DNA of 21,699 nucleotides from Calditrichota bacterium (lineage in GTDB: Bacteria > Calditrichota > Calditrichia > RBG-13-44-9 > J042), in the NCBI GenBank assembly GCA_013150955.1, contig JAADJD010000045.1, forward strand, positions 1 to 21,699, given 5' to 3'. Below are positions 7,214-21,442 of the stretch, piece after piece. The notes under the pieces are model-generated. The model was given only the letters and a program-made list of their open reading frames with translations. It made no database searches and was not told the DNA's origin. Position numbers and translations under genes: made by a program. Position 1 is the first letter of the stretch, and the number at the start of each line of letters is the position of its first letter.

Positions 7214-7320
7214 ATGTTTCGCACCCTCAAAAGTTCACGATGAAATATAGAAATTTTTTCCGGGAATGGTAGCATAAATTCGTTCAAATTGGGAGAGGTT
7301 TCCCCAAAAAGGAGGACAAA

Positions 7321-7754
7321 CCCAAATGATGCCTTAAACCGCGAATGACACGGTTAACCCCAGATTGTGCATTGGCCTACGAATTACACGAATGAACTCA
7401 AATCAGACTAACCCGTTGTGCTAATTCAGGATAAAGCAGGTATTTAGAAAAACCGTTAAAACGGTTAAGAATCAATCTGTTACATTATCCATTTCTCCTG
7501 GCTGAAGCCAGGAGTTAATAGAAATTTTCATTCATGAACACCCAGATTTATCTGGGTGGACAATTCTTATAGTCACAATAAATTATGAAACCGTTTTAAC
7601 GGTTTAGGTTGTCTAATTCGCACAACGGGTAAGACTAATAAAATACATTGGATCGTGTCTGGATGAAAATGTGTTCCAGGATTTATTCGCGATTTTGTTG
7701 ATTTTTTTCGAATTCATTCGCGGCATTCGTGGTTTAACGCTTTATTTGGGTTTA
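7321..7754. repeat. R1 repeat cluster 1, interrupted by an R2 element
   Basis: R1 DNA occupies 7321-7410 and 7631-7754 and is split by the R2 copy at 7411-7630. The left part begins CCCAAATGATGCCTTAAA, then restarts at 7355 with CCCAGATTGTGCATTGG and CACGAATGA. The right part carries the R1 core (TACATTGGAT, GGATGAAAATGTG, ATTCGCGATTTTGTTGAT) and ends GTGGTTTAACGCTTTATTTG, whose last bases include the stop codon of the kinase gene at 7752-7754. Between porU and this cluster (7214-7320) I see nothing but AT-rich DNA. Confidence 0.75.
7411..7630. repeat. R2 element, copy 1 (220 bp, four hairpins, flanking direct repeats)
   Basis: The ends are ACCCGTTGTGC (7411-7421) and GCACAACGGGT (7620-7630), which are inverted repeats. 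Four internal hairpins are visible: AACCGTTAAAACGGTT (7451-7466), CTCCTGGC-TGAA-GCCAGGAG (7495-7514), CACCCAGAT-TT-ATCTGGGTG (7539-7558) and AAACCGTTTTAACGGTTT (7588-7605). AGACTA occurs at both borders (7405-7410 and 7632-7637), like a target-site duplication. A second copy lies at 16817-17037. There is no coding potential, so this is a non-autonomous palindromic element. Confidence 0.75.
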
Positions 7755-8846
7755 TTGAGAGCGGGTGATTTCGGTTCCCACGGGCAATTCCACCCGAAAG
7801 ACGGTGCCCTGCCCCTGCCGGGATTCAAAGGAGAGGCGTCCCTGGTGATTCCGCACAATCTTCTGGCAGATGTTCAGTCCCAATCCCCACCCATCTTTCC
7901 GCGTGGTAAAAAAGGGATTAAAAATCTTTTTCTGAATATCCACCGGAATGCCCTCTCCGGAGTCGATAATTTCCATGGATGCCACATCCTTTTCGGCGTG
8001 CACCCGGATGATGATGTGCCCTCCATCAGGCATGGCCCGCTTGGCATTCAGTAACAAATTGATTAACAACTGTTGCAACTGGCTTTTGTTGGCGTAAATC
8101 CGGGGAACATCCGGTGCCAGCTGCAGCTGTACCTGAATGCCGTTCTGCCGTAGACGGGCGGCAATAAAACGCAGCGTTTCCTGAACCACTTCGGTTAAAG
8201 AAACCGGTTGTTTTTCCATGGGATCCTGTCGGGAAAATTTCAAAATGCTGGCGGCAAAATGGGAAATATTCTCCACCTGATTGCGCAAAAATTCCAGGTG
8301 CTCTTCCACGGCGGGATCGTGATTCTTGACCAGGGCCAGCTCAATGTGTCCCATCAAAATGCTCATAAAATTGTTCAATTCGTGGGCAATGCCCGCCGCC
8401 ATCTCTCCCAGTGCCAGTAACTTGGCCTGCTGCAATACACTCATCTCTTTGTCGTGACTGTGGGTTAAATCCTCCAGAATGAACATAAATAAAAGCCCCT
8501 CCTCTCCCGGCATCGGCAGAATGTGAATGCGGTAAAATCTTTCCTGCTGATCCGGAAGCACCAGACGGTAGCGGGAAATCTGCATAATTTGAGGATTTTC
8601 GCCAAATACCTCTTTTAAAAATTGAATGCGTTGAACAATATTTTCATCCTCCACCAGCTGGCGGGGGAGCAATTCTTCGATGGACACCTTCTCGGCCTTC
8701 TCCACCGTTCCTCCAAATAGCTCAAAATAACGTTGATTGCCATAATAAAAATTCCGATACTCATCGATGACCAGAATGGCAAAGGGCATCATATCCAGAA
8801 TCATCTTAAATTCTTCCTCTCCGGGTTTGGAATGGATCGAGGTCAT
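7752..8846 (-). CDS. PAS-domain sensor histidine kinase
   Basis: A 364-residue soluble sensor kinase. The PAS domain (about 11-128) begins KMILDMMPFAILVIDEY and probably binds the signal or cofactor. The HisKA dimerisation domain (about 137-205) has phospho-acceptor H155 in GEMAAGIAHELNN, close to the NtrB/HPK4-type H-box. The HATPase domain (about 215-355) has an intact N-box (N263, N267), a G1 box DSGEGIP (D295), an F-box FFTT and a G2 box WGLGL. No membrane segment or signal peptide is present, so the signal is probably internal. The ATG is preceded by GGGAG with a 6-nt spacer. No response regulator is adjacent, so the partner is unknown. The stop codon coincides with the end of an R1 repeat, and the kinase domain looks complete. 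Confidence 0.9.
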   Translation of the reverse strand: MTSIHSKPGEEEFKMILDMMPFAILVIDEYRNFYYGNQRYFELFGGTVEKAEKVSIEELLPRQLVEDENIVQRIQFLKEVFGENPQIMQISRYRLVLPDQQERFYRIHILPMPGEEGLLFMFILEDLTHSHDKEMSVLQQAKLLALGEMAAGIAHELNNFMSILMGHIELALVKNHDPAVEEHLEFLRNQVENISHFAASILKFSRQDPMEKQPVSLTEVVQETLRFIAARLRQNGIQVQLQLAPDVPRIYANKSQLQQLLINLLLNAKRAMPDGGHIIIRVHAEKDVASMEIIDSGEGIPVDIQKKIFNPFFTTRKDGWGLGLNICQKIVRNHQGRLSFESRQGQGTVFRVELPVGTEITRSQ

Positions 8847-11862: not shown

Positions 11863-12090
11863 TTAACCCAAGCCATGCATTAAACCGCAATCACGCGAAT
11901 AAAATCAAAAAAATAACCCTAAAATCGCGAAAAAAATCTAAAACCCATTTTCATCCAGATAGAATCCAGTGCATTTTATTATTTTTATTGGTGTTAATTC
12001 GTGTAATTCGTAGGCTAATGCATAATCTGGGATTATTTTTATTCGTGTTAATTCGTTTAATTCGTGGTTTAAAGCATAATCTGGGTTTAA
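11863..12090. repeat. R1 repeat cluster 3
   Basis: One R1 unit in reverse orientation runs from TTAACCCAAGCCATGCATT (from about 11863) through CATTTTCATCCAGATAGAAT and GGTGTTAATTCGTGTAATTC to GCATAATCTGGGAT (about 12037). It is followed by a second right end (GTGTTAATTCGTTTAATTCG, then GTGGTTTAAAGCATAATCTG). It lies between the divergent OPT and glycan-synthase genes. From 12091 to the promoter candidate at 12335 I see no gene and no clear signal. Confidence 0.75.
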
Positions 12091-12350: not shown

Positions 12351-12413
12351 CCCCTCTGACCGTTCGGAAAGGGACAGGGAAAGGCAATCATGTGAAATCA
12401 GAGGGAGATGATG

Positions 12414-15400
12414 ATGGAACAATCATCGGGAAGACAGGTCGATCGGCAACGGTTCTATTCCTGGATCACCATGGGAATCGTCCTGTTTTATTTCATCCAA
12501 CTGGCGCTGGGTGCGCCGCAATCCTCACCACCCGAATATCATCCGTTTGGGATTAAAATTCGCACCGGAGCCAATCTGCGCAGTTACCGGGAAGCGGACG
12601 AGCTGGTGCAGATCATGGCCGAAAACCGGGTCAATCTGGCGTTCCTGCTGGTCAAATCGGATGAAGAAGAACCGGAACTGCCTTCCGGTTATTTGTTTTA
12701 TCCCGGCAAAACGGCCCCGGTGGCGCCGGGATTTGAAGAGGACATTCTGGGATATTTCATCCGCAAGGCGCAGGAAAAACAGATCCGAATCATTGCCTGG
12801 CTGCCGGTAATGAAGGATGCGGCGTTCTGGGAAAGCCATCCTTCCGCACGGGCACAGGTGGTACGTGCGGACGGCACGGTCAGCGAACTGGAAAACTGGC
12901 TCAGTCCCTTTGCACCGGCCACACTCGAACATGCGCAGGCGGTGCTTCAGGAAGTATTGAGCCGCTATCCTTTCGACGGTGTGGTACTGGATTACATTCG
13001 TTACGATGATGATTTTGCCACAGTGGATCAGCACGCGCTGGCGGCCTATCAGCGCCGCTACGACCGTACCCTGCGGGTGGATCGGCTCCATCAGGAAGCC
13101 CGTAAGCACAGTCGCATCTGGAAAAAATGGGTGCGGTTGCGCGCCCAACAAATCGCCGAGGTTTCCCGCCAATTGCTGGAGACCGCAAAGGCGTTGCGAC
13201 CGGACATTGAATTTGGACTGACGCTGCTGCCTTTCAGCGCGGGGGACTATTTTAAGAATACAGTTTCTGGACAGGATTATCGACTGCTCTCCAAAATTGG
13301 GGTCGATTTCATTTCCCCGCTGGGCTACTGGGATGACTGGTACAAAGAGCCCGACTGGGTGCGCCAGGTGTACCGGGAAGCGTTAAAGAATGTGGATGGC
13401 CGCTGCCAGGTCATCATGGCTGTGGACGGGGACATGCCATTCCACAGTACCGCTGCAACCTGGAAGGTGTTACCCGATGATCACCAGCCCATTTTCTTTT
13501 ATTACGGCAAATGGACGCGAGAACGGCTGGTCATGCTGCGGCTGGCCCGCCGTGCCGTGGTCCAACAATCGGAACAACTGGTGGCAATTCGCATCGACAC
13601 GGAACCCGACTATTCGGGTAACTGGAACGTGCCCGACGGCGATTTTCTTCGCCTGCTGGACGTTTTCGAAGCCAATGGCATTTCCGTTACCTGGGTAACG
13701 GTGGGACGATTTGCAGAAACCCGTCCCGAACTTTTGAAACTGCTATACCTGAAAGGGCACGAGATTGCCCTTCACGGCTGGGCACATGAGCGGTTCGAAG
13801 ATTTGCCCAATCGACAGGAAAAAGAAAATCGCATCCGCCGGGGAATCAATGCCATGAAGAAAATCGGCATCCCCATCTGGGGATTCGGCGCTCCGCAAAA
13901 TTCCATTGATTCGGAAACGCGGGATATTTTACTGGAACTCGGATTTCTTTACGATGCCTCGCTGGCTCTGGATCCGGCAGCGGGACAGTGGCTGAGCGTG
14001 CAACATTTTTCCGATTCGCGCGGCACCCTGCTGGTCATCCCCTATGTTTACCCAAATGATTATGACGGATTGTACACGATGCAGCTGGATGCCCGGGGAC
14101 TGTTCCGGGAGTGGAAAAAGCGCTTCGATGAGAATTATCGGACGGCGCGAACGCCCTTTGTCATCGATGTGCATCAGTGGTTAATTGGCCAGCCTCAATA
14201 CCTGGATGCCCTGAAGCAGTTCATTCAGTATGTCCAGAAACAGCCTAACGTCCGCTTTGTGACGCTGAAACAAATTGCAGATATTTACCGAACCGATCCG
14301 CTGCCCACGGCTTTACCCGTGTCCGAACCTCCGACCACCAAATCCTCTCTGGACATTCCCGGAGATCTCTGGACGGGATTTCTCCGATTCATTGCCTTTT
14401 TTCCGGGCATTCTGGCTTTGCAGTACATCATCTTTGCCCTGCTGTACAGGTGGATCATCGAAAGAAAAGCGCCGTTCAACAGCGAATTCACTCCCTCTGT
14501 GGCGGTGCTGGTACCCGCGCACAACGAGGCGGCTCACATCCAGTCCACCCTTAAAGCCCTGCTGGCTTCCGATTATCCCAACATGGAAATCATCGTCATC
14601 GACGACGGTTCCACTGATGGCACGGCGGAACTGGCCGCCCGAATGCCCGGTGTCAAGGTGTTGCGATTGCTGGAGAATCGGGGAAAAGCCCACGCACTAA
14701 ACCAGGCGCTGCGGTGGACTGCGGCGGACATTGTGGTGTGTGTGGATGCGGACACGCGCGTGGAGCCCATGACGATTCGTTACCTGGTACAACGCTTCCG
14801 GGATCCCACCGTGGCCGGCGTTACCGGGAATCCGCAAATTCGCGACCGCAGGGGATTTTTAAGAAAGCTGCAGACCATGGAATATGCCACCATCATCAGC
14901 CTGATCAAGCGGGCAGAAGCGCTGCTTGGCGGTCTGTACACCGTGTCTGGAGCCATTTGCGCCTTCCGACGTTCGGTGCTGGTTCAAAACGGTGGCTGGA
15001 ACGAAACCACCCAGACGGAAGACATCGAAATTAGCTGGCGCCTGCAGAAACTGGGTTACCGCATGACCTACGAACCCCGCGCCGTGTGCTGGATTTCCGT
15101 ACCGGGGAAATATTCCGGTTTGCTACGGCAGCGGATTCGCTGGTCACGCGGCAGTGGCGAGGCGTATCGCAAACATCTGAAAATTGTGACCTCCCCCAAC
15201 ACGGCAACGGTACCCATTATCTTTAACGGGATGATGTCTTCGCTCTGGGCCATTTCCCTGCTGGTGGTGTTTCCCGTGCTCACACTACATGTGCTGCCAG
15301 GGCTGCGAAACGGCAGCGAGATTCTCCTGGCCAGCATTGGACTACTGCATCTGCAAAGTGCAATCGGTCTCATTCTGGACAGGCCATACAATCCCCGCCT

Positions 15401-15533
15401 ACCCAGGTATTTTCTCATGACGCCATTTTTCATCCTGTATTTCTGGCTGCTGGTTTTGCCGGCGTTCGTTTACGGGTTCGGTCGGGGACTTCTGGGGGAA
15501 CAGAGCGGAGTCTGGCAAATTCAACGTGCCTGA
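12414..15533 (+). CDS. Three-domain envelope glycan enzyme: GH-like, CE4 deacetylase-like, GT2 synthase
   Basis: A 1039-residue membrane protein. Order: membrane anchor (16-34); periplasmic TIM-barrel glycoside-hydrolase-like domain (about 43-338) with FDGVVLDYIRYD and acidic D193, recalling the GHL10/GHL13 and PgaB C-terminal families; NodB/CE4-like deacetylase domain (about 388-623) with D395, metal-type histidines H454 and H458 (HGWAH) and DVHQW near 585; membrane helix (655-679); cytoplasmic family 2 glycosyltransferase (about 694-928) with D731 of IDDGS, D778/D780 of VDAD, E869-D870 and QRIRW at 906-910; then three helices to the C-terminus. Helix count and domain sides agree. It probably polymerises a beta-linked hexosamine polymer and trims and deacetylates it, like PgaB plus PgaC. 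Three ATGs are in a row: GGGAG touches the first (12408) and is 6 nt from the third (12414), chosen here. The CE4 motif 1 is atypical (IDTE). Residue 1 is the 12414 Met. Confidence 0.85.
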   Translation: MEQSSGRQVDRQRFYSWITMGIVLFYFIQLALGAPQSSPPEYHPFGIKIRTGANLRSYREADELVQIMAENRVNLAFLLVKSDEEEPELPSGYLFYPGKTAPVAPGFEEDILGYFIRKAQEKQIRIIAWLPVMKDAAFWESHPSARAQVVRADGTVSELENWLSPFAPATLEHAQAVLQEVLSRYPFDGVVLDYIRYDDDFATVDQHALAAYQRRYDRTLRVDRLHQEARKHSRIWKKWVRLRAQQIAEVSRQLLETAKALRPDIEFGLTLLPFSAGDYFKNTVSGQDYRLLSKIGVDFISPLGYWDDWYKEPDWVRQVYREALKNVDGRCQVIMAVDGDMPFHSTAATWKVLPDDHQPIFFYYGKWTRERLVMLRLARRAVVQQSEQLVAIRIDTEPDYSGNWNVPDGDFLRLLDVFEANGISVTWVTVGRFAETRPELLKLLYLKGHEIALHGWAHERFEDLPNRQEKENRIRRGINAMKKIGIPIWGFGAPQNSIDSETRDILLELGFLYDASLALDPAAGQWLSVQHFSDSRGTLLVIPYVYPNDYDGLYTMQLDARGLFREWKKRFDENYRTARTPFVIDVHQWLIGQPQYLDALKQFIQYVQKQPNVRFVTLKQIADIYRTDPLPTALPVSEPPTTKSSLDIPGDLWTGFLRFIAFFPGILALQYIIFALLYRWIIERKAPFNSEFTPSVAVLVPAHNEAAHIQSTLKALLASDYPNMEIIVIDDGSTDGTAELAARMPGVKVLRLLENRGKAHALNQALRWTAADIVVCVDADTRVEPMTIRYLVQRFRDPTVAGVTGNPQIRDRRGFLRKLQTMEYATIISLIKRAEALLGGLYTVSGAICAFRRSVLVQNGGWNETTQTEDIEISWRLQKLGYRMTYEPRAVCWISVPGKYSGLLRQRIRWSRGSGEAYRKHLKIVTSPNTATVPIIFNGMMSSLWAISLLVVFPVLTLHVLPGLRNGSEILLASIGLLHLQSAIGLILDRPYNPRLPRYFLMTPFFILYFWLLVLPAFVYGFGRGLLGEQSGVWQIQRA

Positions 15534-15624
15534 TGAATGATCGGTTGAACAAATTTTCGTAGTCGAAAGAACGATTTGCAAAAATGAAATTTCGAATAAA
15601 TCAAATTAAGATGGAGAGGCAACC

Positions 15625-16764
15625 ATGAAACAGCATGTGGTTCATTTGTTTTCGTATTTCAGTTTTGGATGGGGGTTCATTGCCCTGAATCTGGGATTTA
15701 GTGGATTATTCAACGGGGATGGCATTACCCTGGGCGATTTTTGTCTGTTGAACGCAGGCCTGCTGGCCATCTTCCTGAGTGCCCGCGCCGATCTGTTGTT
15801 CCAGATGGCCCAATCGGCTTTCCAGCATCGAAATGCGACCCGGAAACAGGTGTCGGCAATCGGGGGGCTTCTGCTTCTGCTCATCCTCCCCCTGCAGGCC
15901 CATTCGGCACCGCTGGATGCGGAGGTTCAGAATGTGGAGATGGGAACGACCTATATTAAGGATTCCAGCGACGAACAGTACCGGAGCAACTTTGCGCTGC
16001 TGAAATTTCGCATGGCCGACCGGGACAACATCCGCCTGTGGATTCGGCAAATTCAAAAGAGCGATCCCTGGGGTAGCTCCGGACTTTACGCGGTGCAAAT
16101 GGAGATGGCACCGTTTCGATGGATGGGTCTGAGTGTGGGATACCAGCAAATGCCCGTGGGAACGATTCGCCTGGCAAAAGAGCTTGGCCCCCTGCATCTG
16201 GCCATTGGCGGTGGCCGGGAAGCAATTACCAGTCGATCAAATGCCATTGCGGATCGCATTGATCTGGTCTCGGCGTATGTGGATGCATCGATTCGATTGC
16301 TGGACAATGTGAGCCTGTCCACTTCCATTGGACAGGGGCGTTTCGGTGATCAGAATACCCTGCGAACGTTTACCAGCATGGTGTCCCATTCTCGAAATCT
16401 GGGGCCCATAAAACTGACGCTGCACGCAGGATACAGCCAGCGCATGCTGGATGATTATAGCCCGTATTACTGGAGTCCGGTGGCGTATCGAGAGTTTTTC
16501 CTGGCGCCGGATCTGGGCCTGGAATTAAATGGTTTCTGGATTTACCTGAATCTTTCCGTGGATCGCATACTGGAGGAGCGCTACGCAGGCGATGCCACCG
16601 GATTGACCAGCTGGGGAGCGAACGGAGAAATCAGTCTGGGATATCGGATAGGGCCGGGTTACATCTATTTAACCGGACGAGCCTGGAATAGCGGGATCGA
16701 ACGCGCCACCTCTGGATACCGGGGACAAATTTTTCAGGTGAGTTATGAGCTGGATCTGGATTGA
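15625..16764 (+). CDS. Membrane-hairpin plus outer-membrane-barrel-like protein, probable glycan export partner
   Basis: A 379-residue protein starting 92 bp after the glycan synthase, in the same orientation. GGAGAGG with a 5-nt spacer supports the ATG at 15625. The N-terminus has two hydrophobic helices (about 9-29 and 36-52), a basic stretch (about 53-75), then a signal-peptide-like segment (about 77-95) ending LQAHSA before PLDA. The rest (about 100-379) is rich in alternating beta-strand patterns with Gly and aromatic residues, like an outer-membrane barrel. I do not recognise a named family. Positive-inside topology would put both N-terminus and basic loop in the cytoplasm, so cleavage after AHSA would release the barrel domain. 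The helical pair recalls PgaD and the barrel recalls the porin part of PgaA, but this is inference from context. The stop codon abuts an R1 repeat. Confidence 0.7.
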   Translation: MKQHVVHLFSYFSFGWGFIALNLGFSGLFNGDGITLGDFCLLNAGLLAIFLSARADLLFQMAQSAFQHRNATRKQVSAIGGLLLLLILPLQAHSAPLDAEVQNVEMGTTYIKDSSDEQYRSNFALLKFRMADRDNIRLWIRQIQKSDPWGSSGLYAVQMEMAPFRWMGLSVGYQQMPVGTIRLAKELGPLHLAIGGGREAITSRSNAIADRIDLVSAYVDASIRLLDNVSLSTSIGQGRFGDQNTLRTFTSMVSHSRNLGPIKLTLHAGYSQRMLDDYSPYYWSPVAYREFFLAPDLGLELNGFWIYLNLSVDRILEERYAGDATGLTSWGANGEISLGYRIGPGYIYLTGRAWNSGIERATSGYRGQIFQVSYELDLD

Positions 16765-16816
16765 ACCCAGATTGAGCCATAGACCACGAATCACACGAAT
16801 CGTTACCAATAAATTA

Positions 16817-17037
16817 AACCGTTTTGCTATTTCAGGATAAAGCAGGCATTTAGAAAAACCGTTAAAACGGTTAAGAGTCAATCGGTTACGTTATCCATTC
16901 TCCCGGCTGGAGCCGGGAGTTAATAGAGAAATTATCATTCATGTCCACCCAGATTTATCTGGGTGGACAACTCCTTTAAGAACAATAAGTGATAGAACCG
17001 TTTTAACGGTTTGGGTTGTCTAATTCGCACAACGGAT
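16817..17037. repeat. R2 element, copy 2
   Basis: It is nearly identical to the copy at 7411-7630 and in the same orientation. Ends are AACCGTTTTGC and GCACAACGGAT. The hairpins are conserved: AACCGTTAAAACGGTT near 16858, CTCCCGGC-TGGA-GCCGGGAG (16910-16929), CACCCAGATTTATCTGGGTG near 16947 and AACCGTTTTAACGGTT near 16996. The second hairpin has a compensatory T-A to C-G change relative to copy 1. ATTAAA occurs at both borders (16813-16818 and 17036-17041), overlapping the ends, so a target duplication is less clear than for copy 1. Confidence 0.75.
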
Positions 17038-17141
17038 TAAACCCAAATTACGAATTAGCCTACGAATGACACGAATTAACACAAATAAAAATACATTGGA
17101 TTGTATCTGTATGAAAATGTTTTCCAGGGTTTATTCGCGAT

Positions 17142-17314
17142 TTAACCCAGATTATGCATTAAAACCACGAATTACACGAATAAACACCAATAAAAATAAA
17201 AGAATACACTTGATTCTATCAGGATAAAATGTTTTCCCGAATATATTCGCTATTTTGTTGATATTATTCGAATTCATTCGCGTGATTCGTGGTTTAACGC
17301 ATTATTTGGGTTTA
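17142..17314. repeat. Complete R1 unit with terminal inverted repeats
   Basis: The left end reads TTAACCCAGATTATGCATT then AAAACCACGAATTACACGAA. The reverse complement of the right end reads TAAACCCAAATAATGCGTT then AAACCACGAATCACGCGAA. These are about 42-bp imperfect inverted repeats. The AT-rich centre contains CACTTGATTCTATCAGGAT, AAATGTTTTCCCG and ATATTCGCTATTTTGTTGAT. Its form is that of a small non-autonomous (MITE-like) palindromic element. Confidence 0.7.
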
Positions 17315-17480
17315 ATTGATATTTTTGGTTTCATTCGTGTGATTCTCGGTTTTATGCATTATTTGGGATAAAATGTACTGGATTCTATCTGGATGAAAAT
17401 GTTTTCCCAGATATATTCGCGATTTTGTTGATATTTTTCGAATTCACTCGCGTGATTCGTGGCTTAGCGCATTATTTGGG

Positions 17481-18494
17481 TTAAACGGAATGCTTGCGCT
17501 GGCGAAATAACAACCATAGAAAGAACGGCCCACCCAGCATGGCCGTCAGAATCCCCACCGGAAGATTAATGGGCGCCAGAACCGTTCGCGCGACCGTATC
17601 CGCTGTGGCCAGAAACACCCCACCATACAAAAAACTTCCGGGAATCAACAGGCGATGATCCGGTCCCACCACCATCCGTAAAAAATGCGGCACAATTAAT
17701 CCCACAAATCCAATCGGCCCGGTTAATGCCACCACGGTTCCCGTCAGCAATGAGGTCAATAAAAACGCCCACTTCTGAACGCGGGGGACATCCACACCTT
17801 TACTGAGCGCAAACACTTCGGAAGTGCTCAACAGGTTTAACGTATTGGCCAAAGCACCCAATCCCACGACAGCAACAGCAATCAGCGGCAACACGCGCAA
17901 AATCGTTCCGTAATCGGTAATGTCCAGCCCCCCCATCATCCAGCGAATCATCTGCTGGGTTTCGGTGAAATCCGCCAGATAGTGCAATAAGAGGATCAAC
18001 GCGCCAAAAAAATAACTGAGGGTCACCCCGGCCAGAATCATGATGTGGATGGCAATTTGGCCTATGCCACGAGAGAGCCCATACACCAGCGCGATGGTGA
18101 GCAGGCTTCCCGTAAAGGCAGCGATTTGCAGGGTGGAAAAACCCCACCAATTCAGGCCAATCCCCAATTTTATGGCCAGCAGGGCGCCCAGTGCCCCGCC
18201 ACTGGAAACACCCAGGGTGTATGGCGTGGCCAGCGGATTTCGCAGCAATGCCTGAAATACCACTCCGGCCAGGGACAAACAACCGCCGGCTAACAATCCC
18301 AGCATCACCCGGGGCAGGCGTACCTGAAAAAAAATCACTCCATCGGGATTGGTGGTTCCCCGCAAATGATTCCACACCTGGTGAAAATCCAGTGCCTGGC
18401 TGCCAATGAGCGGCAATACCACCACCGCACCGGCTACCGAAACCAGTCCCAGCAAAACAAACCGGATGCGAAAACCGATCGGGTTACGGCCCAT
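17481..18494 (-). CDS. btuC: FecCD/BtuC-type ABC transporter permease
   Basis: A 337-residue inner-membrane permease with about ten helices, the normal length for the FecCD/BtuC family that imports corrinoids, haem or siderophores. Hallmarks: RLPRVMLGLLAGGCLSLAG and FQALLRNPLATPYTLGVSSG in the first third, GPIGFVGLIVPHFLRMVVG with DHRLLIP later (the ATPase-coupling region), and NLPVGILTAMLGGPFFLWLL near the end. The ATG at 18492-18494 is preceded by GAGGGG with a 6-nt spacer. An in-frame TTG two codons earlier touches that site and is less likely. It overlaps the end of the ATPase gene by 11 bp, so the two are probably translationally coupled. It is last in the operon, and its stop lies in the end of an R1 repeat. 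Substrate is assigned by context (see the DUF71 gene). Confidence 0.85.
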   Translation of the reverse strand: MGRNPIGFRIRFVLLGLVSVAGAVVVLPLIGSQALDFHQVWNHLRGTTNPDGVIFFQVRLPRVMLGLLAGGCLSLAGVVFQALLRNPLATPYTLGVSSGGALGALLAIKLGIGLNWWGFSTLQIAAFTGSLLTIALVYGLSRGIGQIAIHIMILAGVTLSYFFGALILLLHYLADFTETQQMIRWMMGGLDITDYGTILRVLPLIAVAVVGLGALANTLNLLSTSEVFALSKGVDVPRVQKWAFLLTSLLTGTVVALTGPIGFVGLIVPHFLRMVVGPDHRLLIPGSFLYGGVFLATADTVARTVLAPINLPVGILTAMLGGPFFLWLLFRQRKHSV

Positions 18495-19269
18495 GATCAA
18501 CCCCTCTGAACATCACCAGCGGTTTGCCATCTCCGGGATGCGGGAAAATTTCCAGCGGCACCTCGTACACGGCCTCCAGCACCTCCGGTCGAATGATCTG
18601 TTGCGGCGGACCATCGGCCACCAGACGACCATTTTTAAGCACCACAATGCGCCGACAAAACCGGATGGCCAGATTCACATCGTGGGTTACCGTCACCACC
18701 GTGTGTTGGGATTGGCGCTGCTCCTCCTGTAAAATGCGATAAAATTGCAACTGATGTTTTAAATCCAGTGCCCGGGTGGGTTCATCCAGCAACAATATCC
18801 GGGGCTCCTGTGCCAGCGCAGAGGCAAGAATCACCCGCTGCTTTTCGCCTCCGCTCAACTGGCTGAGCCGGCGCTGACGCAACGTCTGAACTCCAGTCCG
18901 CTTCATCACCGCCCCGACGATCTTCCAGTCCCGTTCATCCAGCGGTTCGAACAGCCGGTGGTAAGGGAATCGTCCCATGCAGACAATCTCTTCCACGGTA
19001 AAATCGTACATGGAGGAAAATTCCTGAGGCACATAGGCCAGTACCCGCGCCAGCTCATTGCGGCGATAGCGATCCAAGGGACGATCAGCCAACCACACCT
19101 GCCCGCGATGGGGCCGCACCATTCCGGCCATGAGCTTCAATAAGGTGGTTTTTCCGGCACCATTGGGCCCAATCAGACCCACGAATTCTCCACCGGAAAT
19201 TTCCAGGGAAACATCCCGAAAAAGAGGGCGATCCCCGTAAGCAAATTCAATGTTTTGCAGGCGTATCAC
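18484..19269 (-). CDS. btuD: BtuD/FecE-type ABC transporter ATPase
   Basis: A 261-residue ATPase that powers the permease. All motifs are intact, numbered from the chosen start: Walker A GPNGAGKT (34-41), Q-loop Q82, signature LSGGEKQR (138-145), Walker B ILLLDEP with D162/E163, and the H-loop H196 (VTHD). The start is taken as GTG at 19267-19269, because the protein then begins VIRLQNIEFAYG as is usual for the family. It overlaps the preceding binding-protein gene by 23 bp. An ATG 19 codons upstream (19326) would add a non-homologous tail. The ribosome-binding site of the GTG is weak, which fits translational coupling. Substrate follows the operon. Confidence 0.87.
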   Translation of the reverse strand: MIRLQNIEFAYGDRPLFRDVSLEISGGEFVGLIGPNGAGKTTLLKLMAGMVRPHRGQVWLADRPLDRYRRNELARVLAYVPQEFSSMYDFTVEEIVCMGRFPYHRLFEPLDERDWKIVGAVMKRTGVQTLRQRRLSQLSGGEKQRVILASALAQEPRILLLDEPTRALDLKHQLQFYRILQEEQRQSQHTVVTVTHDVNLAIRFCRRIVVLKNGRLVADGPPQQIIRPEVLEAVYEVPLEIFPHPGDGKPLVMFRGVDHGP

Positions 19270-20122
19270 GGAAAGACTCTCGAATCGTCTCGGCAATGCG
19301 TTGTAGTTGAACGGCCATGCGGGCAATTCGTGGTCCCGGTATAAGAAACATCCGATCGGTGAGTAAATAGACCTGCTGCCGCTGTACTGCCGTCAGGATT
19401 TTCAACGCTTCCCACTCTTTCTGCAACTGAACCTTTTCGACCCGGGAAAGCGTTTCGGACCGAAATTCCAGGATGGCGTCCGGATTGGCTTTGATGAGAT
19501 CCTCGCGAGAGATCTCGAAATATCGCAGGGGAATCCCATCAAACACATTGCGGCCCCCACACAGGGCCCACAGTTCGCTCAAATACGTTTCCTTCCCGGC
19601 AATGTAGATATGCTGAAGGGTGCCCGGCGTTCTGCCCACCACCAGCAACGCCCGCACAGTTCGTTTATCTGCGGATTGCTGCTCAACCTGTTGCAGGGTA
19701 TCCTGGATGCCCTGAATCACGGCCTGCGCCCGATCAGTTATGCCAAAGGCTTCACCCAGCGTGCGGAAACTTTCCAGAATGTCGGCAAGGGTTTCGTTGG
19801 GCAAGGTTAGCGTGGCCAGTCCCAATCGCTGCAGTTTTTGCTCCATTTCGGGATTGGGCAATAGCAACACCAGGTCGGGCTGCAGCCGCACCATCTGTTC
19901 GAAATCGGGGTTCAGATAGCCCCCCACCGAAGGGAGCCGTAAAACCGCCGGGGGATATTGACAAAAGGCGGTGCGCCCCACCAGACGATCCTGCAATCCC
20001 AACCGATAGACCATCTCGGTAATATTCGGGGCCAGGGAGATAACACGCCGGGGCTGAGCCGGTAATAAAAGCCAGCTCCCGAAAAACCACAGCCAGATTA
20101 CCGTCCATTTACGAATGGTCAT
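19247..20122 (-). CDS. btuF: BtuF-like periplasmic substrate-binding protein
   Basis: A 291-residue binding protein of the Peripla_BP_2 (TroA/BtuF) fold. The signal peptide (about 1-22) ends in LLLPAQP. Then comes RRVISLAPNITEMVYRLGL, the typical opening of BtuF and siderophore-binding proteins, and YLNPDFEQMVRLQPDLVLL. A second lobe begins near residue 150. No lipobox Cys is evident at the cleavage site, so the protein is probably free in the periplasm. The ATG (20120-20122) overlaps the stop of the upstream gene as ATGA, and AAAGGA lies a few bases before it. An upstream in-frame start at 20275 would run 51 codons into the preceding gene. It would deliver ligand to the permease. Corrinoid is favoured by the DUF71 neighbour, with haem or siderophore the alternative. 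Confidence 0.82.
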   Translation of the reverse strand: MTIRKWTVIWLWFFGSWLLLPAQPRRVISLAPNITEMVYRLGLQDRLVGRTAFCQYPPAVLRLPSVGGYLNPDFEQMVRLQPDLVLLLPNPEMEQKLQRLGLATLTLPNETLADILESFRTLGEAFGITDRAQAVIQGIQDTLQQVEQQSADKRTVRALLVVGRTPGTLQHIYIAGKETYLSELWALCGGRNVFDGIPLRYFEISREDLIKANPDAILEFRSETLSRVEKVQLQKEWEALKILTAVQRQQVYLLTDRMFLIPGPRIARMAVQLQRIAETIRESFRDTPAKH

Positions 20123-20823
20123 GATTCCTTTTTCGAGTCGGAGTTGCCGCGCGATCGAATCCGGGCTACCCAGAACACCCCCTTGCTTTCCAGGCTCTTC
20201 ACCTCCACTTCCACCGGAAACCGGAAGCTGGGTGACGAGAACACAAAGGTATGAAATTCTCCCCGTTCCCCACAAGGATCAATCCAATTTGGTAGCCGTC
20301 GCAAAAATTCTGAATTAAAAAATTTCCCCAGAAACGTGGGTTTCAGCACCCGGGTATCCACCACAATCAGAACCGCGCGGTTTTTATCTTCAATGAATTG
20401 CCAGGCCAGCGACCGGGTGTCCTGTCCCCACAACGGAAATAAGGGAGTCATCCCAATCCGCTGGCATAACCCCTCGCGATATTGCCGAATGTCTTCCAGG
20501 TAAATATCCCCAAATGCCCAGTGGGTAATGCCGCGGTCCCGATGCTGACGGGCCACTTCTTTCATGCGCGCCTCATACACCTCATTGGGAGCCCGGGCAG
20601 GCAAATAAACCTTTTCCAGCGGCAATCCAAGCGATTGGGCCTGTTGCTCAATCAATTCCACCGGAAAACCGTGCATGACCACTTGATGGGTACCCTCCTC
20701 CACCGTCGTCATCAATCCAGCCACTTTGTACTGCTCACTCTGTTGCAACTGCCTCAACATTAGTAAAGAATCCTTCCCCCCACTCCAGGACACCATAACG
20801 GGAAGCTTTTGCACTGCCTTCAT
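20119..20823 (-). CDS. DUF71/Dph6-related ATP pyrophosphatase, probable B12-salvage subgroup
   Basis: A 234-residue cytoplasmic PP-loop enzyme of COG2102 (ATP_bind_4). The PP-loop SWSGGKDS is at 12-19, THWAFGDIYLEDIRQYRE follows, and the conserved C-terminal motif CGERGEFHTFV is present. Eukaryotic and archaeal relatives (Dph6) ligate ammonia to diphthine. Bacteria lack diphthamide, and published comparative genomics assigns a DUF71 subgroup to B12 salvage because it sits with btu transporter genes, as here. It is the first gene of the operon and overlaps the binding-protein gene by 4 bp. Start choice is uncertain: GAGGGG touches the ATG at 20823 and is 9 nt from a GTG at 20814, so the protein may begin three codons later. 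No promoter or riboswitch was recognised upstream. Confidence 0.83.
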   Translation of the reverse strand: MKAVQKLPVMVSWSGGKDSLLMLRQLQQSEQYKVAGLMTTVEEGTHQVVMHGFPVELIEQQAQSLGLPLEKVYLPARAPNEVYEARMKEVARQHRDRGITHWAFGDIYLEDIRQYREGLCQRIGMTPLFPLWGQDTRSLAWQFIEDKNRAVLIVVDTRVLKPTFLGKFFNSEFLRRLPNWIDPCGERGEFHTFVFSSPSFRFPVEVEVKSLESKGVFWVARIRSRGNSDSKKES

Positions 20824-21120: not shown

Positions 21121-21442
21121 TGTAAAGCCAGATTATGCAATAGCCTACGAATTACACGAATGAACACACATAAAAATAATAAAGTACATTGGATTATATC
21201 CGGGTGAAGTTTTGTTTCCGGGTGTATTTGTGATTTTGTGGATATTTTTGGTTTTATCCAAGATGATGCAATAGCCTACAAATGACACGAATGAACACCA
21301 ATAAAAGCAATAGAATGCACTTGATTCCATCTGGATGAAAATGTTTTCCCGGATATATTCGCTATTTTGTTGATTTTATTCGAATTCATTCGTGTGATTC
21401 GCGGTTTAATGCATGATTTGGGTTAAACCCAAATAATGCATT
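21121..21442. repeat. R1 repeat cluster 5
   Basis: Two R1 units in tandem, same orientation: 21121 to about 21262 (GCCAGATTATGCAATAGCC, CACGAATGAACACACATAAA) and about 21263 to 21424 (GATGATGCAATAGCCTACAA, CACTTGATTCCATCTGGATG, GTGATTCGCGGTTTAATGCA). The start of a third (AAACCCAAATAATGCAT, 21425-21441) is joined head to tail, giving a palindrome around GGGTTAAACCC. The third is cut off, probably by the insertion sequence that follows. Confidence 0.75.

Follow-up and report, generated by a model that had tools for sequence, protein, structure and literature searches.

In Streptococcus pneumoniae, 36 genes have their extreme 3' end, stop codon included, within a BOX repeat, and the passage that describes these genes reports no strong evidence of their truncation (PMC3049150). 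Since BOX repeats encode the stops of 36 genes, the presence of a repeat at stop codons is not a new phenomenon. The repeat described here, R1, resembles BOX in being a short interspersed repeat found at stop codons. BOX is nevertheless a different repeat, and an explanation by target duplication is absent from the same passage (PMC3049150). A second related group is that of the TIMEs, non-autonomous inverted-repeat elements derived from Tn3 and making AT-rich duplications of 5 or 6 bp, which differ from R1 by 38-bp Tn3-type ends and by a Tn3 transposase partner (PMC4133298). R1 was considered as a possible TIME because of its AT-rich 5-bp duplication; its ends match those of IS1380 elements instead. 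Among the papers retrieved by a text search, none named a miniature inverted-repeat element linked to IS1380 in its title or abstract opening. R1 is filed here as a new MITE family, a known kind of element.

The window, which is the whole stretch of 21,699 nucleotides analysed, contains the R1 arrays listed in Table 1. According to the sequence-only reading, R1 ends coincided with the stop codons of the barrel gene, of the btuC-like gene and of the sensor kinase gene, and all three cases were confirmed in the sequence, the corresponding array edges being placed at 16762, 17484 and 7754 by a model of the R1 end. The array that had been described as running from stop to stop between the two convergent genes (16762–17483) was likewise found to do so. 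One refinement emerged, in that the first nucleotides of what had been called the R1 end (TAA, TGA or TTAA) belong to the target-site duplication, whereas the element proper begins at CCCA. Neither Rfam families nor tRNAs were found in the window.

Table 1. Genes, R1 arrays, repeat units and target-site copies in the window.
Feature	Position	Strand	Remarks
Sensor kinase gene (PAS/HisKA/HATPase)	7752-8846	-	Stop TAA 7754-7752
Predicted barrel protein gene	15625-16764	+	Stop TGA 16762-16764, in target copy; no Pfam match
FecCD/BtuC-type permease gene (btuC-like)	17481-18500	-	PF01032; stop TAA 17483-17481, in target copy
R1 array enclosing R2, right edge on sensor kinase stop	7317-7754		R1-end HMM, consensus alignment
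Target-site copy TTTAT (gene strand ATAAA)	7751-7755	-	Holds sensor kinase TAA stop
R1 array off stop codons	9218-9581		R1-end HMM
R1 array off stop codons, divergent interval	11863-12089		R1-end HMM
R1 array between convergent barrel and FecCD genes	16762-17484		Six R1 ends, pattern >>><<<; R1-end HMM, consensus alignment
Left target-site copy TTGAA	16761-16765	+	Holds barrel gene TGA stop
R2 module, different repeat within R1 array	16815-17037	+	Consensus alignment
Partial R1 unit	17038-17143	+	Consensus 1-114
Near-full-length R1 unit inside 16762-17484 array	17144-17314	+	86% to consensus
Right part of R1 unit adjoining FecCD stop	17368-17482	+	Consensus 57-171
Right target-site copy TTAAA (gene strand TTTAA)	17481-17485	-	Holds FecCD TAA stop
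R1 array off stop codons, upstream of gene 20119-20823	21123-21426		R1-end HMM

The R1 element and its 5-bp target duplication

The outer end of R1 was modelled with a 51-nt HMM, trained in three rounds on matches from its own genome. The search covered 1.20 Mb of the 4.07-Mb genome (29%), in which the genes were predicted with a home-made gene caller, and yielded 560 R1 ends distributed in 188 arrays, or approximately 470 ends per Mb. Nearly all array edges carried the same R1 end, pointing outward. The element consists of a 165-bp core without genes, with ends of the form CCCA(G/A)AT.ATGCATTA, and the core starts with CCCAGATTATGCATTAG at one end and with CCCAAATAATGCATTAA at the other. Its consensus is an imperfect inverted repeat. 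The commonest unit measured 173 nt from the T to the A of the ends, and 128 of 176 units were 170 to 174 nt long. R1, of which 142 units of 168–178 nt were aligned, has the characters of a MITE: small size, no transposase gene and high copy number. The average difference between copies, approximately 22%, indicates that R1 was not amplified recently.

A second repeat, R2, was observed within R1 arrays, where it mostly occupies a single R1 position and occurs in either orientation. It is approximately 220 nt long, has ends of the CCCGTTGTGC type, contains two strong hairpins and is present in the window at 7409–7628 and 16815–17037. Eight near-full copies were counted in 1.2 Mb.

The target-site duplication of R1 is 5 bp long and follows the motif X-T-N-A-Y, usually WTWAW. 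Among the 31 arrays made of a single unit, the flanking 5-mers were identical in 21 (the permuted mean was 5.1, with a maximum of 13 in 2000 permutations) and showed at most one mismatch in 29, and the match did not continue past 5 bp. At the junctions, position 1 was a T and position 3 an A in 113 units out of 113, position -1 was almost exclusively A or T, and the typical duplicated 5-mers were ATAAA, TTTAA, TTTAT, TTAAT and TTAAA. A 3-bp TNA duplication, corresponding to an IS5-type reading, was discarded in favour of 5 bp after shift analysis and comparison of the flanks. In arrays abutting a stop codon, the 5-mer on the far side was identical in 7 of 24 cases (2.5 after permutation, P 0.004), for example TTTAG/TTTAG at a TAG stop and ATGAA/ATGAA at a TGA stop. 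Since the far copy lies outside the gene, its match marks the original target. A single base distinguishes the two target copies of the 16762–17484 array (TTGAA/TTAAA), and the two 5-mers flanking the 7317–7754 array do not match; the reading of these two arrays thus relies on the family as a whole and is not demonstrated case by case.

Stop codons among the target sites

In 821 kb, 149 array edges faced a stop codon, and in 25 of them the stop occupied positions 1–3 or 2–4 of the R1 end (offset -2 or -3), the other single offsets near zero accounting for 0 to 4 edges each. In the 1.20 Mb, 23 of 127 clean arrays adjoined a stop codon, compared to 3.9 expected for uniform base positions. This excess and the peak in offset indicate a genuine coincidence that does not come down to three chance cases, and the observation of the sequence-only reading holds beyond the window. 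When positions were drawn uniformly among the TWA sites of the arrays' own intergenic intervals, stop codons included, 20.6 ± 3.0 stop matches were expected for the 23 observed. The agreement was less good in tandem intervals, where nine stop matches were found for 3.4 expected in the (-,-) orientation and five for 7.0 in the (+,+) orientation, which speaks against the TWA expectation. The rate of R1 per TWA site was 0.079 at stop codons and, downstream, 0.061 (4–20 bp), 0.062 (20–50 bp) and 0.065 (50–100 bp). The slightly higher rate at stop codons than over the 100 bp that follow was non-significant (Fisher P = 0.27), and stop-codon sites are thus used about as often as other TWA sites within that distance.

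We propose that R1 is a non-autonomous MITE moved by a transposase of the IS1380 family and that its XTNAY target duplication explains the coincidence with stop codons, a model that we hold to be very probably correct. It builds on direct observations, namely the duplication and its target motif, the terminal repeats, the transposase family present in the genome, and the statistics. In this model, the IS1380-family transposase would act in trans to mobilise R1, either at present or formerly, and R1 would insert at X-T-N-A-Y (mostly WTWAW; N-T-(A/T)-A-N), the 5 bp being copied on both sides. A stop codon could be part of the target in two registers, either as the central TNA, which would be TAA or TGA, or as positions 3–5 of X-T-T-A-R, which would be TAA or TAG. 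In both registers the stop lies wholly within the duplicated 5-mer, so the gene would keep its own stop and the insertion would survive selection; insertions within coding DNA would not. The exact coincidence would then result from the large share that stops represent among the tolerated TWA sites of a gene-dense genome with approximately 50% GC. The stops observed at offset -2 (nine TAA, three TGA, no TAG) and at offset -3 (ten TAA, one TAG, one TGA) agree with the XTNAY prediction apart from one exception.

The 16762–17484 array is the sole case of a double, stop-to-stop coincidence among the arrays analysed. It most likely derives from a founder insertion into a TTRAA in which the stops of the two convergent genes overlapped. 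Duplication of the TTRAA would have left one copy of the stop to each gene, and more R1 units as well as R2 would have filled the array later. Because the target copies differ by one base, this history and the order of the insertions are what we infer from the family. Neither the recognition of gene ends nor a termination function is needed to account for this array.

The state of the genes abutting R1 was examined by comparison with G001, a genome of the same genus which is poor in R1 (one weak match). This comparison bears on the idea that R1 inserts randomly in gene tails, supplying a new stop and slightly truncating the protein, an idea suggested by the TAA that one frame of the R1 end contains. 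Orthologs in G001 were available for 14 genes that abut R1. The last residue is the same in eight of them and lies within 4 residues in four more; the remaining two encode proteins longer than their orthologs, by approximately 8 and 17 residues, and none is shorter. Furthermore, of three possible registers just two are seen, and genes entering R1 in other frames are few, all of which makes such truncation extremely unlikely. The proteins next to R1 in the window had been judged complete, and this was borne out for FecCD and the kinase, which end within 2–4 residues of their G001 orthologs; the barrel protein had no match in the three nearest relatives. A concatenated C-terminal query also drew paralogous kinases, and the match of C6_84007 was rejected (25% identity, not orthologous). 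In G001, the FecCD gene is followed, at approximately 0.8 kb, by an OPT transporter gene, and the kinase gene by a C25 peptidase gene; the intergenic DNA is too diverged for a base-by-base alignment of empty sites. In the window, a large polysaccharide deacetylase/glycosyltransferase gene and the barrel gene (12408–16764) are situated between the OPT and FecCD genes.

The analysis agreed with the sequence-only reading in that the genes are not truncated and that the pattern depends on where an element inserts. That reading had further considered that the element might target gene ends or transcription terminators, or might itself serve as termination or 3'-end processing DNA, and neither suggestion was supported. 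Recognition by R1 of gene ends or terminators, whatever the base sequence there, would agree with the strong 3' bias, the rate per TWA site on the 3' sides of genes being 5.8 times that on the 5' sides, and with the highest rate being observed in convergent intervals (0.073). The rate nevertheless stays level over the first 100 bp, stop codon included, without a peak at terminator distance; the stop matches equal the expectation from TWA sites only; and TGA, which represents 39% of gene stops, makes up only 4 of the 24 stops abutted by R1, a scarcity that the motif predicts and gene-end recognition does not. Weaker insertion upstream is expected from selection at promoters, and the lower 5' rate would follow if insertions were selected against in promoters and leaders, although a preference of R1 for 3' DNA might still be a source of the bias. 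Recognition of gene ends is for these reasons very improbable. That R1 is host DNA acting as a transcription terminator or 3'-end processing signal is slightly less probable still. Its preferred 3' location and the strong fold of its arrays (z -10.8 for 16740–17500) would suit such a role, but a strong RNA fold is expected of inverted repeats. No intrinsic terminator (a GC-rich stem followed by a T run) was found within 16762–17483 on either strand, the only terminator-like match, at 16710–16724, being inside the barrel gene. The ends and duplications of R1 are those of a transposable element, R1 also occurs upstream of genes, where it is about sixfold rarer per site, and it is nearly absent from G001, in which the same genes end normally. 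A more limited role seems unlikely, in which some strongly folding R1 arrays, once inserted at stop codons or just behind them, would have been retained because their 3'-end structure shields convergent transcripts or keeps them apart, the 3' bias being then partly the product of positive selection and not of the removal of harmful 5' insertions alone.

With the target-duplication model, a repeat can seem aimed at gene ends because its 5-bp target contains stops and the duplication restores them. The same logic may extend to other bacterial repeats located at stop codons, such as the pneumococcal BOX, and coincidences with stop codons should not be taken for termination signals.

The IS1380-family transposase and the probable parentage of R1

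The AT-rich 5-bp duplication of R1 and its CCCAGATT end suggested the IS1380 family, the lead being ISEcp1, and this family was then tested with a positive result. A single IS1380-family transposase (PF13701) was present in the same genome, at C18:15-959 (E 2e-40), at the end of contig C18. A matching end, CCCAGATTACGCAATAG, was found upstream of it, where the end reads CCCAGATTACGCAATAGAACGAAAT. The contig end interrupts this copy (L103:1-1400), and a one-base frame break was apparent by eye near its 5' part. Being incomplete and carrying a frame break, it may be dead, and is probably inactive. PF13586 had no match in the genome. PF01609 had seven (L096-L102), several of them incomplete or at contig ends; when the R1 motif was sought in their flanks, only one copy, which is also the PF13701 match, was followed to a matching end.

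Relatives of this transposase in other phyla showed 46–62% identity, and IS1380 copies are present in Candidatus Magnetominusculus LBB02, in a Syntrophaceae bog MAG, in Nitrosomonas NMNS01 and in the betaproteobacterium UKL13-2. The ends of the relatives read CCCAGATT..CCATTAG or CCCAAATTT.CCATTAG, and their 5-bp duplications (ATTAT, ATTAA, TTCAA, TTCAT, CTCAT and TTTAA) are all X-T-N-A-Y. The terminal inverted repeats correspond to each other, with CCCAGATTATGCATTAG in R1, CCCAGATTACGCAATAG in the IS of the same genome and CCCAGATTGTCCATTAG in the relatives, as do the duplications, which are 5 bp WTNAW for R1 and 5 bp XTNAY for the IS1380 relatives, and the PF13701 gene, though incomplete, is found in the genome that carries R1. 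R1 is thus similar to IS1380 elements in its terminal repeat, CCCA(G/A)ATT...CATTAG, and in its 5-bp XTNAY duplication, and differs from them in its lack of a transposase gene, its size of 165 bp and its abundance of approximately 470 ends per Mb. It adds a high-copy MITE family for which the transposase family is identified. In a small sample of 17 IS1380 relatives, a few possible cases of location on a neighbouring stop codon were noticed.

Two other groups of repeats were observed. A run of tandem-like repeats of approximately 22 nt (ttgttttactcaaaacatac) is present at L103:1960-2190. In the window, GC-rich direct repeats of families D5-D7, D12, D17, D18 and D20 are clustered at positions 699–1730; they are unrelated to R1 and include hairpins such as TCCCGCCCTGCGGGA.
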